From: Hyphomicrobium album
GTDB lineage: Bacteria > Pseudomonadota > Alphaproteobacteria > Rhizobiales > Hyphomicrobiaceae
Direction of reading: 5' to 3'
NCBI RefSeq assembly: GCF_009708035.1
Contig: NZ_WMBQ01000001.1
Coordinates: 434,001 to 498,000, forward strand
Length of the DNA: 64,000 nucleotides
Under the pieces are notes generated by a model that was given only the letters and a program-made list of their open reading frames with translations, was not told the DNA's origin and did not search any database. Position numbers and translations under genes: made by a program. Positions 3 to 14,220 of this stretch are shown one piece after another (positions within the stretch are counted from its first letter, which is position 1; the number at the start of each line of letters is the position of its first letter).

Positions 3-1193
3 ACCGCGTGGCCCACCAGCGCTGATGATCGCGACGACGCCCGGCGGCCGAACAACCGGCGAATTCGTGGCGCGAAGTACTATCTGGCAGACGTTTCGGC
101 CGGCAAGGGGGAGCTGGCGCACCAGTCGATCCTGCCGCTCGATGAGGGCCGCGTACAAGCGCACTGGTACCTCTGGGAAGGCGAGCGGCCGAACATTCAC
201 TCCTACGCCAAGAAGCCGGGCTACATCGCCGTCAAGTACAAGGACGAGCTGTTCGAGCTCTCCATGCACAAGGCTCACTTCCGGTGGTTCGGGATTGCTG
301 ATCCGCAGGTGCAGCAAAACCTGACGATCATCCTCGAACCCACTCTCTTCGACCCGCAGATCGCCATGTGGGGCGTGTACCCGGATCAAAGCCGCAACCG
401 GCTCATGTTTGCTGGCAACGGGGAAAAGGGCATTGGATTGCCCCTCTCCGACTGGGGTTTCGACTTCTCCGACAACATGCCGCAAGAGATCCGCGACGCG
501 ATCTTGGCGGCTCGCGGCGACGGCAACAACACCCTGGAGGATGAGGAGTACCGGAAGCGTCTCCAGGACAAGTTCGGCACTCGGTGGTTGACCACCAAGC
601 TTGTTCAGGCGCGCGACGAGGACAAGGACTCCAAGCCTGCAACCCCGACCAACGAGACGGTGGCGATCGTGCAGCGCGATGGCGAGGGTGGCGGCGCCCG
701 GAAGGTTCGGAACAAGCGCAAGAGCGCTCGGCGAATTCAAGTTATTCGCCTGCGCGCAGTTGAAGGAGGTAATGGGCAAGGTGTCGAGCGGCAGGTAGCC
801 GTCGACGTGCCGAAGTTCCGCTTCGTCGGCGCCGACCAGTTCGACGAGAACTGGCACCTCGCATCGTGGGTTCCGAACGATCCAGACGGGCCCACGGTCT
901 TGATGAACAGTGAGGCGCCGATTTTGCTGGAGACGGTCAAGCACCATCAGGAGCAGTATCCGGACGTCTTCGCCGCCGAGGTCGACAAGATCGTTCGAGA
1001 CACCTACGGCGAGGTCGCGGTGTGCAAGATAGCTCACTCCCAGAAGCTCATCGCACATGTTGCTGAGGAGGATCTCGATCAGGTGTACCGCAATGAAGCG
1101 GCCCTCACGGTGTCGCTGATGGGGCTGCTGGCCGAAGAGAGCCTGCTTGCCCAGCGGCTGGGCAAGCTGGGCCGCAAGAAAAATGCGGCGTAG
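3..1193 (+). CDS. C-terminal part of a large protein of unknown function (5' end outside window)
   Basis: The frame is open from base 3 to a TAG at 1193, so 396 residues are visible and the start lies to the left. No catalytic motif is visible. There is a basic stretch (RKVRNKRKSARR) in the middle and a C-terminal helical part ending LGKLGRKKNAA. Segments such as YPDQSRNRLMF and LPLSDWGFDF vaguely recall the C-terminal halves of GHKL/HSP90-like ATP-binding proteins found in mobile elements, but the ATPase domain would be outside the window, so this is a guess. It converges on the leftward recombinase-TcmP-DUF5131 operon with 89 bp between stops. Confidence 0.6.
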   Translation, partial: TAWPTSADDRDDARRPNNRRIRGAKYYLADVSAGKGELAHQSILPLDEGRVQAHWYLWEGERPNIHSYAKKPGYIAVKYKDELFELSMHKAHFRWFGIADPQVQQNLTIILEPTLFDPQIAMWGVYPDQSRNRLMFAGNGEKGIGLPLSDWGFDFSDNMPQEIRDAILAARGDGNNTLEDEEYRKRLQDKFGTRWLTTKLVQARDEDKDSKPATPTNETVAIVQRDGEGGGARKVRNKRKSARRIQVIRLRAVEGGNGQGVERQVAVDVPKFRFVGADQFDENWHLASWVPNDPDGPTVLMNSEAPILLETVKHHQEQYPDVFAAEVDKIVRDTYGEVAVCKIAHSQKLIAHVAEEDLDQVYRNEAALTVSLMGLLAEESLLAQRLGKLGRKKNAA

Positions 1194-1282
1194 TCCCGGC
1201 CTTTCGGCCTCGCGTGAGCACAGCGCTCGCGCGAGGCCACGCTCCGACACCTCGAGTCGTTGTCTGGCGCTGCTGCGAGGCG

Positions 1283-2065
1283 CTAAGCTGCTCTCTGGCG
1301 CGTGGCGGTCACAGTCGCCGGCATCTCATCCCAGGTTCGCCCCTTAAGCAGACGCCCTCTGCGCTTCTTCACGGGTCCGCCCCACTGCTTGAAGAAGAAG
1401 CTCGAGCCGTACTTCCTGGTGGCCGAAAGCAGGTCCAAGACCCATTTCTCTTCAACAGGGCGCGCGCCGGGCCCCGACTCGCCGCCGACGATGATCCAAT
1501 CGATGCCGCGCAGGTTTGGCTTCGGTATCGCGCCCAGCAGCGGCTCGAAGGAGATGAAGCGCACGGCGGCAGAGACCTCGCGGATGGCGTCGATGCGATC
1601 GAGGTACGCGGCGCTCTCGACAGAGGTTCCTAACCACACGTTCGGTGTGACCGTCTTCCTCGTCTTGAGGAACGCCGCCATGCGCTGGGGGCGTTTGGTG
1701 AGCACCTGGAACTGATGCCAGTGAGCCTGTTCCATGACCGACCACACGGCGCTTACGAAGGTGTCGGGGACGCTTTCATGAAAGAGGTCGGACATCGAGT
1801 TCACGAAGATCAACCGCGGCTTCCTCCACCGCAGCGGGATGCTGAGAGCATTGACATCTAGGCGAATGGAGCCCGACCAGATCGCGCGGCCGCCAGACTT
1901 GCGAGTCGTCCCCTGGTACTTCGCAAGACCCATCGCCTGAAGTCGCGCAGCCATGCGCATGGCATAGCAGTTCGTGCAGCCGGGCGAGACCATGGCGCAC
2001 CCCGCGACAGGGTTCCAAGTCGCATCCGTCCATTCGATGTCGGATCCGCCGGCCAGTAGGGTCAC
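1283..2065 (-). CDS. DUF5131 (phage Gp37/Gp68 family), three-Cys-motif protein
   Basis: 260 residues from a GTG start at 2065. The N-terminus DIEWTDATWNPVAGC is the family hallmark, and C23, C30 and C33 form the C-x6-C-x2-C motif, which resembles a radical-SAM-type cysteine cluster. Later family blocks are LIFVNSMSDLFHE, LTKRPQRM, NVWLGTSVE and IIVGGESG. The frame extends further upstream, but GTG 2065 is preferred because it overlaps the TGA of tcmP (bases 2064-2062) in a GTGA junction and sits just before the conserved block. It is the last gene of a coupled operon with a serine recombinase and TcmP. The biochemical function of the family is not established; similarity to radical-SAM proteins is from family knowledge. 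Confidence 0.9.
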   Translation of the reverse strand: MTLLAGGSDIEWTDATWNPVAGCAMVSPGCTNCYAMRMAARLQAMGLAKYQGTTRKSGGRAIWSGSIRLDVNALSIPLRWRKPRLIFVNSMSDLFHESVPDTFVSAVWSVMEQAHWHQFQVLTKRPQRMAAFLKTRKTVTPNVWLGTSVESAAYLDRIDAIREVSAAVRFISFEPLLGAIPKPNLRGIDWIIVGGESGPGARPVEEKWVLDLLSATRKYGSSFFFKQWGGPVKKRRGRLLKGRTWDEMPATVTATRQRAA

Positions 2066-2898
2066 TCCCTCAAGAGGTGGTTCGCGATGTTCATCGAGGC
2101 CGCCTGCGCGGCCGGTGACGGATTCGAGCACGCGAACATTAAGGAGTAGAGTACCCGAGTCTTGTCTTTGAGGTGGAGCACGTTGCGCGCCACGCCGGGG
2201 AAGCCGGCTGCGCGTATTCGATCCTGAACCTCCTGATCGAGCATCTCCAGTGTCGCCACCTTCACCTGCTCAGGCTCGTTGCCGAAGAAATTGGTCTGCC
2301 GCGAGGGCTCATAGAACTTTTCTCGCCACCCCTTGTAGCCGAGGAAGGCGTCGATCTTGGCACCCCAACTGGCGGGCATCTGCGACCTTGTCTTCGTCGC
2401 CAGGCGCTGCAGGCCCATGCCGGTCGGCACCAATAGCCAGAGATCGACACCGGCCTTGCACCTGGCGATCGCCTGCAAGGTGCTCCACTCGAGCTGCATG
2501 CCATAGGGGTCAATGAACAGCACGACGCGGTGCTTCTTCGTCAACCTCTCCAGCAGCGCCGGCAGGATCGCATTGACGTCGCCGGCGTGAAAGGAGACGC
2601 GATCGAGCCGGTCAAGATGGCGCGCGGCGATCTGCTCGCGCAACCGCTTCAACGCCTTCTCAGATTTTTCAATGAGGTGATACTCCGCCATTGGAGGATC
2701 CAGCCCGACGGCCTGGAGCGCAGAGCCCGCCGTCGGCGCAGCCGCATCGCGCAGTATCACCTCGCCGCTACCGCTGAAGGCATCGATATAGACCGTCTTG
2801 GCCCAGCTCTGCCGGCTCATCACCTTCAGCCAAGCCTCGAGGTACTCGCGCACCTTGCCCAGCTTCTTCGTCGTCCAAGGTCCGCCGCGCCCCTTCAC
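2062..2898 (-). CDS. tcmP: Three-Cys-motif partner protein TcmP
   Basis: 278 residues with a GTG start at 2898 that overlaps the recombinase stop (GTGA). The opening GPWTTKKLGKVREYLEAW followed by VYIDAFSGSGEV is the TcmP signature. The fold looks like a class I methyltransferase: glycine-rich motif I (DAFSGSG), an acidic strand end (HLIEKSE), FHAGDVNAIL and VVLFIDPYG. The family was named because its genes sit beside three-Cys-motif proteins, and here the DUF5131 gene does follow directly. A nucleic-acid or nucleotide modifying role is plausible but is inference. Confidence 0.92.
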   Translation of the reverse strand: MKGRGGPWTTKKLGKVREYLEAWLKVMSRQSWAKTVYIDAFSGSGEVILRDAAAPTAGSALQAVGLDPPMAEYHLIEKSEKALKRLREQIAARHLDRLDRVSFHAGDVNAILPALLERLTKKHRVVLFIDPYGMQLEWSTLQAIARCKAGVDLWLLVPTGMGLQRLATKTRSQMPASWGAKIDAFLGYKGWREKFYEPSRQTNFFGNEPEQVKVATLEMLDQEVQDRIRAAGFPGVARNVLHLKDKTRVLYSLMFACSNPSPAAQAASMNIANHLLRE

Positions 2899-3632
2899 TT
2901 TCCGCTCCGCTCAGATATCGGTAGCGCTGTACTGTCGGATCCCGGCCGAGCGTCACGTCGCACTGAGCTGGAGATTTTGGACACCCTACGCGCGCGAGTT
3001 TGACTCGGCTGGCCGCCTACCTGCCGTCCAGCCACAACGAGGGCCTTGCGCGCCGCTGCGACAGTGCCGACGCTCGCGCCGGTCTCGGCCACGACGTCCC
3101 GCACCGACGCCCCCCGCAGTAACCCCGCTTTGATCTTCTCAATATCGAAGTCCGCGCCTCTCGGTCGGCCGATGGACTTGCCGCTCCTGGTGCCACTGGA
3201 GCGGGCCCTGGCGATGCCGGCGTTCACACGGGCCACGATCATCTCGCGCTCGAGCTCGGCGAACACACCGAGCATCTGGTAGAGCGCGCGGCCGGCGGGC
3301 GTCGTGGTGTCCAGGGCTTGCGTGTGGATGTAGAGGCCGCGGCGCGTCTCGCGGATGGTCTGGAGTATGTCAAGGAGGTCCTTCATGGACCGCCCGAGGC
3401 GATCCGAGGACCAGACGGCTACGATGTCGAAGTTCCGGCGAACTGCATCCTTGAGCAGCCTGTCGAGCCCCGGCCGCTTCGCTCGGCCCTTCGACCCGCT
3501 GATGCCCCTGTCCTCGTGTACGGCGACCACGTCGTGCCCCGACCGCGCCGCCCACCTGTGCAGCTCTTCGAGCTGGTTGGCGGTAGTCTGCGCATCCGTG
3601 GAAACGCGCGCGTAGATAGCGACACGAGCCAT
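2895..3632 (-). CDS. Serine recombinase (resolvase/invertase family)
   Basis: 245 residues. The resolvase domain covers about residues 3-140: Y7, R9 and catalytic S11 in YARVST, the block RPGLDRLLKD at 53-62, and SSDRLGRS at 75-82 with R78 and R81 of the active site. GRPRG at 155-159 leads into a helix-turn-helix (about 163-196). The length fits small Tn3-type resolvases or DNA invertases, not large serine integrases. ATG 3632 has GGAGG upstream. It is the first gene of the coupled operon with tcmP and DUF5131. No paired crossover sites were identified nearby, so whether it resolves, inverts or moves this cassette is open. Confidence 0.93.
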   Translation of the reverse strand: MARVAIYARVSTDAQTTANQLEELHRWAARSGHDVVAVHEDRGISGSKGRAKRPGLDRLLKDAVRRNFDIVAVWSSDRLGRSMKDLLDILQTIRETRRGLYIHTQALDTTTPAGRALYQMLGVFAELEREMIVARVNAGIARARSSGTRSGKSIGRPRGADFDIEKIKAGLLRGASVRDVVAETGASVGTVAAARKALVVAGRQVGGQPSQTRARRVSKISSSVRRDARPGSDSTALPISERSGK

Positions 3633-3762
3633 AAACCCTCCCGCGACGTGTTCAAAAGGTAGTGGATTTGAACATACTTTACGGCGTTCCGGAGAGCCAG
3701 TGTTTTGGGGGTTATCAGCGAGGTTTTTCGACAGGGGTTTTGAACAGTACCGGCGCGGACGC

Positions 3763-4071
3763 TCACGGCAAGATCAAGTTGATGCGCAACTGCGCGTCGG
3801 CTCGTTCCGCCTTCTCTCGTGCCACCGCGACAACTTCGTCGGGAGCGTCCACAACCTTCTCGAGCAAGTCCCAGTAGGCGGCGAGCCGTCGCTCATCTTC
3901 GACCCCGAGGTCGGGCCGGAGCAGGCCTTCAAGCTCGGTGACCTGATCGAATGTGAGCACGCTCAGCAGGCGCGCGAAGGCGGCTGTCACTTCGGGATAT
4001 GGATCGACTCGTTCGCGTAGTCGGGCGCCGAAAACCTTCTCAAGTCGCTGCAGTCGCGTGCTCGTGCTCAT
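3763..4071 (-). CDS. Small acidic protein of unknown function
   Basis: 102 residues, charged and mostly helical, with no recognised domain. The start is set at ATG 4071, which has GGAGG five bases upstream; an in-frame GTG at 4077 lies on the ribosome-binding site itself and is less likely. It begins 9 bp after the stop of the HTH protein at 4081-4638 and is probably cotranscribed with it. A 130-bp gap separates it from the recombinase operon. Confidence 0.65.
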   Translation of the reverse strand: MSTSTRLQRLEKVFGARLRERVDPYPEVTAAFARLLSVLTFDQVTELEGLLRPDLGVEDERRLAAYWDLLEKVVDAPDEVVAVAREKAERADAQLRINLILP

Positions 4072-10672: not shown

Positions 10673-11101
10673 CTAGGATTCGCCGCCGGGCATCTGCAAA
10701 AGGCTGAGCTTCGGATGTCGACTGCCGCAGCCGCAGTCCTCCATTCCGTACTCGAACACATCGAGGTCGAGTGTCTGCTTCAACCACAGGCTCACGAGGC
10801 CCCTGTGGCACCAGTCCGGCTTGTTGGGCGCCTCGTAGCAGACCAACGTGGGAATGCGTCCGTCCGCGAACGCCACGAGCTCGGAGACGACGCGCTCCGG
10901 GTCCAGCTGGTCGAGCACCTCGGCTTGGTAGCGCTTCCGGTATTCCTCGGGCGAGACGCTCGAGAACCATGGGCCGGGGGCCAATTTGGGATACCGGCGA
11001 TAGCCCGCCGGCATGCCCCGTGGCGTGCCGCGCGAGATGCCCACCCGCAGGTGATCTTCGGGGAGCGCCACGTACCAGCTGCTGGTCAAGATTCTCGGCA
11101 T
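10673..11101 (-). CDS. DUF488-like protein
   Basis: 142 residues. YPKLAPGPWF near the middle, then VCYEAPNKPDWCHRGLVSLW near the C-terminus, match the DUF488 pattern in which a cysteine-rich C-E-x-WCHR block ends the domain. The function is unknown; members are often encoded beside DNA-modifying genes in mobile elements. Further cysteines (DCGCGSRHP) follow close to the C-terminus. Confidence 0.75.
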   Translation of the reverse strand: MPRILTSSWYVALPEDHLRVGISRGTPRGMPAGYRRYPKLAPGPWFSSVSPEEYRKRYQAEVLDQLDPERVVSELVAFADGRIPTLVCYEAPNKPDWCHRGLVSLWLKQTLDLDVFEYGMEDCGCGSRHPKLSLLQMPGGES

Positions 11102-14089: not shown

Positions 14090-14207
14090 CGCTAAGCGAA
14101 ACAGAGTCCGTGCACCGTTGAAAGGGGGATGCAAAGAGGGACGCCCGGAGCACGCTTCGGTCTAGAAGCTTGGCGACGCGAAGGTTTTCCCTCGGCGTTC
14201 GGCCGCC

Positions 14208-14220
14208 ACCCCTTCCGCCA
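14208..14220 (+). other. Possible attachment-site remnant resembling a tRNA-Ser 3' end
   Basis: ACCCCTTCCGCCA equals the usual 3' end of a serine tRNA acceptor stem plus CCA, and it lies exactly where accessory genes give way to chromosomal ones. No T-loop or complete tRNA precedes it and no tyrosine integrase was seen, so a chance match is quite possible. Confidence 0.2.

Follow-up and report, generated by a model that had tools for sequence, protein, structure and literature searches.

A TcmP–DUF5131 pair carried by a tRNA-Ser element of Hyphomicrobium album as a candidate anti-phage modification module, with a seemingly incidental serine recombinase neighbour

Does a serine recombinase that stands at the head of an apparent operon share the function of the two genes behind it, or is it a chance neighbour? 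The question is raised by three genes in a 64,000-nucleotide stretch of Hyphomicrobium album DNA (assembly GCF_009708035.1, contig NZ_WMBQ01000001.1, positions 434,001 to 498,000; hereafter the window), which encode a serine recombinase, TcmP and a DUF5131 protein. A preliminary description of the window treated the three as a strictly coupled, self-contained unit that both modifies something and moves or inverts DNA. The reading that we favour, with moderate confidence, is that the TcmP–DUF5131 pair, which corresponds to the PADLOC candidate system PDC-M41, is cargo of an integrative element in a tRNA-Ser gene and limits phage growth, and that the serine recombinase is incidental. The pair is best read as a two-enzyme module for nucleic-acid modification, probably with an anti-phage role.

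All three genes lie on the minus strand. The recombinase reading frame of 245 codons starts with ATG (3632..2895), matches the Resolvase N-terminal domain PF00239 with 145 bits and corresponds to PHROG 125, 'DNA invertase'. TcmP (278 residues; 2898..2062) is a predicted class I methyltransferase with 163 bits to TIGR04474 (curated cut-off, 53), and DUF5131 (260 residues; 2065..1283) is a predicted radical S-adenosylmethionine (SAM) enzyme with 309.8 bits to PF07505 (curated cut-off, 28.9). Both start with GTG, and a minus-strand GTGA joins the recombinase stop to the TcmP start (2895..2898) and the TcmP stop to the DUF5131 start (2062..2065), so the preliminary description had the layout and the family names right. 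The GTG at 2898 is nearly forced as the TcmP start by the sequence: it is the first ATG, GTG or TTG past the preceding in-frame stop and the sole such candidate that contains the whole domain, which begins at residue 7. An alternative in-frame GTG for DUF5131 lies further upstream at 2131; we preferred 2065, which already places the start of the domain at residue 8. A promoter and terminator scan of window positions 1100–3900 found none. The genome contains one TcmP and one DUF5131. Four-base overlaps are of an ordinary type on this chromosome: across 98 kb they join 3 of the 58 neighbouring gene calls that share a strand, a count that excludes both junctions studied here because the gene caller missed the recombinase and began DUF5131 too late.

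We examined the recurrence of the three-gene order in two sets of loci and from the side of the recombinase. In the family of the host, TcmP was found in 14 of 103 genomes, and DUF5131 lay on the same contig within about 400 bases in all 14; in the order, TcmP was found in 49 of 397 genomes at E ≤ 0.001 (47 above the curated cut-off), or about one in eight. The resulting family and order set comprises 53 TcmP loci (13 family loci and 40 order matches). The second set was obtained with a DUF5131 query on GTDB genomes of many phyla, which gave at least 586 confirmed loci, and the best 80 were used. At least two places occur in both sets (L080 = L150 and L098 = L137), so the 133 loci represent about 131 distinct ones. 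A serine recombinase led the TcmP–DUF5131 pair at 0 of the 53 loci and at 0 of the 80, three of which (L160, L177 and L189) have stretches that start at or just before the pair and leave the upstream gene out of view. Serine recombinases were present elsewhere in the stretch at two of the 53 loci (L076 and L110) and three of the 80 (L131, L139 and L148), and none led the pair; the nearest case was L148, where DUF5131 has a 201-residue recombinase 685 bp upstream on its own strand. Relatives of the window recombinase at E ≤ 1e-20 occurred in 20 of 385 genomes of the class, its own genome included. The reverse test covered 34 loci (28 from the class, including the own locus, 4 viral and 2 plasmid), mostly with 1.5 kb on either side, and neither TcmP nor DUF5131 stood beside any of the 33 other relatives; the own locus alone was positive. 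On these surveys the recombinase was rejected as a conserved third member. At the present sampling the recombinase neighbour is a one-off and looks incidental, outside the TcmP–DUF5131 module. A genome survey of the three-gene order was the refuting test that the preliminary description itself had proposed, and the recombinase-led unit did not survive it.

The pair itself was nearly constant. DUF5131 adjoined TcmP in 51 of the 53 family and order loci; none was seen at L099, where TcmP sits at a contig end, or at L110, where TcmP has no DUF5131 nearby. A tally by hand of the 51 pairs gave 11 with TcmP before DUF5131, 30 with DUF5131 before TcmP and 10 convergent. Among the best 80 loci of the many-phyla set, 70 pairs were adjacent (41 in the order TcmP–DUF5131, 14 reversed and 15 convergent), and the remaining 10 consisted of one with TcmP far away, six without TcmP and three cut by a contig end. 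Thus the claim that TcmP and DUF5131 are known neighbours was borne out: they are near-constant partners and already a PADLOC candidate pair. No reading frame matching both the TcmP and the DUF5131 profiles was found in either the 53- or the 80-locus set.

The strict coupling suggested by the GTGA overlaps is not a property of the system. Among 43 tandem TcmP–DUF5131 reading-frame pairs of the 80-locus set, in which L171 is counted twice, an NTGA overlap was possible in six and was given by the best start in two, and 34 pairs lay within 30 bp of each other; the overlap type seen in the window is therefore not kept in relatives. Evolved translational coupling was rejected, because NTGA is rare among the tandem pairs and many pairs are reversed or convergent, and coupling by an overlapping start and stop is impossible for the convergent ones. 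In a quick tree built from 81 DUF5131 proteins, the arrangement needs 8 changes and the mean after shuffling was 26.1; 10 rows whose arrangement was unclear were left out of the count. Because the two genes stay neighbours in all three arrangements, between which the tree needs 8 changes, their bond is independent of one operon layout. We argue that this stable partnership despite changing order and strand is that of a joint function without fixed translational coupling.

Two further features of the pairs were observed. Eight convergent pairs (L123, L126, L127, L129, L130, L133, L137 and L144) are compact, their 3' ends overlapping by 31–80 bases. Two TcmP genes surround one DUF5131 at L215 (pSymA), L080/L150, L087 and L142, possibly as a three-component version.

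With regard to the recombinase, S11 and R9, picked by eye, are presumably catalytic. Its match to the 33 other relatives stops at residue 202 or earlier, and codons 201–245 (2898..3032, minus strand) have no match in relatives and no coding signal. The GC contents at the three codon positions of this tail were 0.64, 0.69 and 0.58, against 0.67, 0.51 and 0.85 for codons 1–200, and the mean codon scores were −0.53 and 0.115, respectively. Scores as low as that of the tail were found in 1 of 247 segments of 45 codons from island genes and in 0 of 1170 from the flanking chromosome, the segments overlapping one another. The tail is probably a read-through of the former leader after loss of the original stop, ending in the overlap with the TcmP start; since it matches no relative and lacks coding signal, the overlap probably follows from the lost stop. 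Length pulls the other way in 3 of the 33 relatives, which are also long (L202, 238 residues; L204, 228; L237, 227) with unmatched tails, as does relative L220, which could be aligned up to recombinase residue 232 via an in-frame stop.

A 26-bp dyad (TGTTCAAA-N10-TTTGAACA; 3649..3674, assigned to neither strand) precedes the recombinase ATG by 16 bp, and another half-site, TGTTCAAAA, is found upstream at 3738–3746. From their sequences, the dyad and half-site could be a resolvase-type binding or crossover site for the recombinase. Across the genome the dyad has a single exact occurrence and two others with 3 mismatches. An invertase acting on two inverted copies of the dyad is therefore not supported, as the genome has no other copy within 2 mismatches; a differently sequenced crossover site is conceivable. 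Upstream dyads with at least 7 outer pairs were present at 13 of the 33 other recombinase loci, with differing sequences; when the upstream stretch of the window recombinase was shuffled 2000 times, an 8-pair arm arose in 27 cases.

The pair is carried by a 19.9-kb integrative element in tRNA-Ser(TGA), which has its own tyrosine integrase and a 15-bp attachment repeat. The tRNA-Ser gene (contig 1, 428249–428338) and the adjacent integrase gene (contig 1, 428533–429756) lie to the left of the window. The right attachment repeat (plus strand; window 14206..14220, contig 1 448206–448220) is identical to the tRNA-Ser 3' end (window −5676..−5662) and closes the element. Mobility is better explained by this integrase and the tRNA-Ser repeats, so the serine recombinase is not needed as a mover, and the proposal that the cassette itself moves or inverts DNA was not borne out. 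The genes of the left flank, for DacPBP and RlpA, stand next to the tRNA-Ser in all six congeners fetched (of seven); no right-flank gene was found at the tRNA-Ser of these six, and no empty element site was seen. Another integrase occupies the same tRNA-Ser in congener L257.

What the two proteins might do was approached through structure models and motifs. The DUF5131 model had a predicted local distance difference test score (pLDDT) of 92.1. Among the folds listed by VIA-align, which define the scope of the structural comparison, its best match was spore photoproduct lyase (Z 12.8–12.9; root-mean-square deviation 3.0–3.1 over 197–200 residues), followed by a viperin-like protein (Z 11.3), lipoyl synthase (11.0) and RlmN (10.4). 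Foldseek also ranked spore photoproduct lyase best (E 1.6e-3; probability 0.99–1.00). C23, C30 and C33 (CX6CX2C), GGESG (194–198) and KQWG (226–229) were invariant in 81 of 81 sequences. Both the barrel fold and the three conserved cluster cysteines of the radical-SAM superfamily were thus found; the score with the radical-SAM model TIGR04471 was 70 bits, far under its cut-off of 355, and a family-profile search of DUF5131 gave no spore photoproduct lyase family up to E 1. In the model and the alignment, DUF5131 thus has a radical-SAM-type barrel that resembles spore photoproduct lyase most, and its three cysteines never vary.

The TcmP model (pLDDT 95.8) was most similar to one RlmJ entry (Z 18.0), then to LPL1258 (17.6) and Trm1 (15.9). 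RlmJ is favoured among the methyltransferase matches because the TcmP profile also finds it by sequence (E 2e-8); a family-profile search of TcmP gave no RlmJ family up to E 1. K12 and D130 were invariant (55/55), and motif IV has D in 55 of 55 relatives, P in 50 and then Y, F or W in 47. TcmP is accordingly modelled as a class I methyltransferase whose nearest match is RlmJ, which methylates adenine in rRNA.

The claim that the cassette modifies something is reasonable, since the predicted folds of TcmP and DUF5131 are those of SAM-using enzymes. DUF5131 would bind a [4Fe-4S] cluster and SAM and generate a 5'-deoxyadenosyl radical, and TcmP would bind nucleic acid and SAM. The two would successively modify a single nucleobase in the nucleic acid of phage or host, and this modification would limit phage growth. 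The specific chemistry is put forward only tentatively: in such an immune module, a methyltransferase like RlmJ and a radical-SAM enzyme like spore photoproduct lyase would work in sequence on one nucleobase. In the non-preprint literature that was searched, two-step methyltransferase and radical-SAM nucleobase chemistry was assigned to no defence system.

A defence role is suggested by the context of the pair. TcmP matches PADLOC model PDC-M41A (9.6e-71) and DUF5131 matches PDC-M41B (2.5e-102). The proteins around 17 pairs (136 in all, from 17 of the 20 loci prepared) matched 68 PADLOC models at E ≤ 1e-20, and 17 control stretches of the same contigs (134 proteins) matched 11, mostly generic in our judgement; these are counts of models, not proteins, one protein can match many, and the small sample weakens the comparison. 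Among the 25 models listed of these 68 are QatA and QatC (Qat), HamA and HamB (Hachiman), PDC-S15, PDC-S19 and a phospholipase effector.

Phages and plasmids also carry the genes. Convergent TcmP and DUF5131 genes lie between the integrase and the immunity repressor of Gordonia phage Fairfaxidum, and Synechococcus phage Ssp-JY39 has a convergent pair as well. DUF5131 was present in 161 of 50,697 phage records; viral contigs yielded 26 matches to a TcmP pattern, none of which was confirmed. On Sinorhizobium meliloti pSymA (L215), one TcmP lies behind an 845-residue reading frame, and a second TcmP with DUF5131 lies beyond it. PMC12445080 lists TcmP SMa2243 together with Hna SMa2245, and the position of the 845-residue frame suggests that it is Hna. 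PMC10855318 reports that PDC-M30 occurs in 32 P. aeruginosa strains and that 68.8% of these are phage-resistant, which is a correlation only; the PDC-M30 B model also matches the window DUF5131 (2e-94).

Several points weigh against our reading. The PADLOC entry for PDC-M41 is a guilt-by-embedding candidate only. The model mad3 matches two proteins in the pair set and two in the control set, and Pfam finds chiefly ordinary metabolic genes in both. The literature search found no published functional test of TcmP or DUF5131, PDC-M41 did not appear in the papers that it listed on defence candidates, and it gave no matches for TcmP with radical SAM and phage or for DUF5131, PF07505 and TIGR04474 by name. 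Foldseek gave no match of the DUF5131 model at E ≤ 0.001. Other RlmJ entries score only Z 14.7–15.2 with the TcmP model, in the range of many class I methyltransferases (14–15.6), and the DPPY catalytic motif of RlmJ is absent from the window TcmP, which has DPYG. Because the motif is DP-aromatic-G, the target base of TcmP may differ from that of RlmJ; Trm1 has a similar motif, DPFG. Well-supported branches of the DUF5131 tree alone force just 2–3 changes per arrangement. Finally, the promoter of the recombinase may drive transcription of the pair in this genome, in which case the neighbour would matter for expression.

Besides the pair and the serine recombinase, the element carries a ligase domain, an SRAP protein (contig 1, 432355–433029, left of the window), a GHKL ATPase, a tail chaperone, a tape-measure protein, AlpA, a T5orf172 protein and a protein with weak similarity to replication initiators. 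The GHKL-type ATPase (624 residues; window −681..1193, plus strand; HATPase_c_3, 4.2e-11; weak MzaB match, 6.2e-7) faces DUF5131 tail to tail and might be another defence gene carried by the element. The T5orf172-domain protein (PF10544; 13445–14089, plus strand), missed by the gene caller, lies at the right end of the element, and a small DUF488-related protein (PF22751; PHROG 2450, of unknown function) lies at 10673–11014 on the minus strand. An SRAP-type gene is also annotated on the small Methylocaldum plasmid that bears a close recombinase relative.

The strongest alternative gives the pair a protective or housekeeping role in mobile elements, acting in nucleic-acid repair or in tRNA or rRNA modification and not against phages; we regard it as possible though rather doubtful, and a variant in which the pair masks the element's own DNA against host restriction is included in the same estimate. 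Such a role would fit the closest structural matches, a DNA-repair lyase and an rRNA methyltransferase, as well as the presence of the pair in two examined phages and of DUF5131 in phage records, and the SRAP protein and ligase domain of the window element. However, PADLOC lists the pair as a defence candidate, the neighbours of the 17 pairs match more defence models than the controls, and the position between integrase and repressor in Fairfaxidum equally fits a prophage-borne defence. A toxin-antitoxin-like pair, in which a toxic change to a nucleobase by one enzyme is undone or prevented by the other, so that the mobile element is stabilised, would account for a near-constant enzyme pair on mobile elements, in phages and on plasmids with free order and orientation; it is improbable, since both proteins are full-size enzymes, DUF5131 lacks an adjacent TcmP, by the profile used, in 7 of the 80 loci, none of these 7 being cut by a contig end, and the TcmP of L110 (one of the 53 loci) has no nearby DUF5131. 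The earlier view, a single coupled unit that modifies something and also moves or inverts DNA, has on its side the two GTGA overlaps on one strand and a dyad that could be a crossover site, yet it is very improbable and at this sampling largely refuted, given the recurrence of 0/53, 0/80 and 0/33, the non-coding composition of the overlap-forming tail, the lack of a second dyad copy within 2 mismatches and the element's own integrase and attachment repeats.

Our reading of the pair as element-borne anti-phage cargo drops a misleading lead, the recombinase as part of the module, and offers testable chemistry for TcmP and DUF5131 in its place, the pair itself being already known. If the radical-SAM and methyltransferase assignment is true, it would give a function to PF07505 and TIGR04474 and explain a widespread PADLOC candidate system. 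The worthwhile lead is the enzymology of the TcmP–DUF5131 pair.

In comparison with known systems, the two best plasmid matches, small serine recombinases of Methylocaldum and Methylomagnum plasmids, are 54.5% (residues 1–177) and 51% (residues 3–196) identical to the window recombinase; at 200 and 203 residues they are without its 45-residue tail and, unlike it, have no TcmP alongside in the stretches examined. The TIGR04474 and PF07505 proteins of the window resemble those of the three-Cys-motif partner pair, and only the upstream neighbour differs. Both PDC-M41 genes are the best PADLOC matches of the window proteins, are adjacent and lie on a mobile element, whereas the serine recombinase in front of the window pair has no counterpart at the head of the pair in the 53 and 80 loci. 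RlmJ, the 23S rRNA A2030-N6 methyltransferase, has motif I, the GSP segment and the motif-IV aspartate in common with TcmP. Spore photoproduct lyase, a radical-SAM DNA repair enzyme, shares its fold with the DUF5131 model at 11–14% identity; it has the usual radical-SAM cysteine spacing, CX3CX2C, whereas DUF5131 has CX6CX2C.

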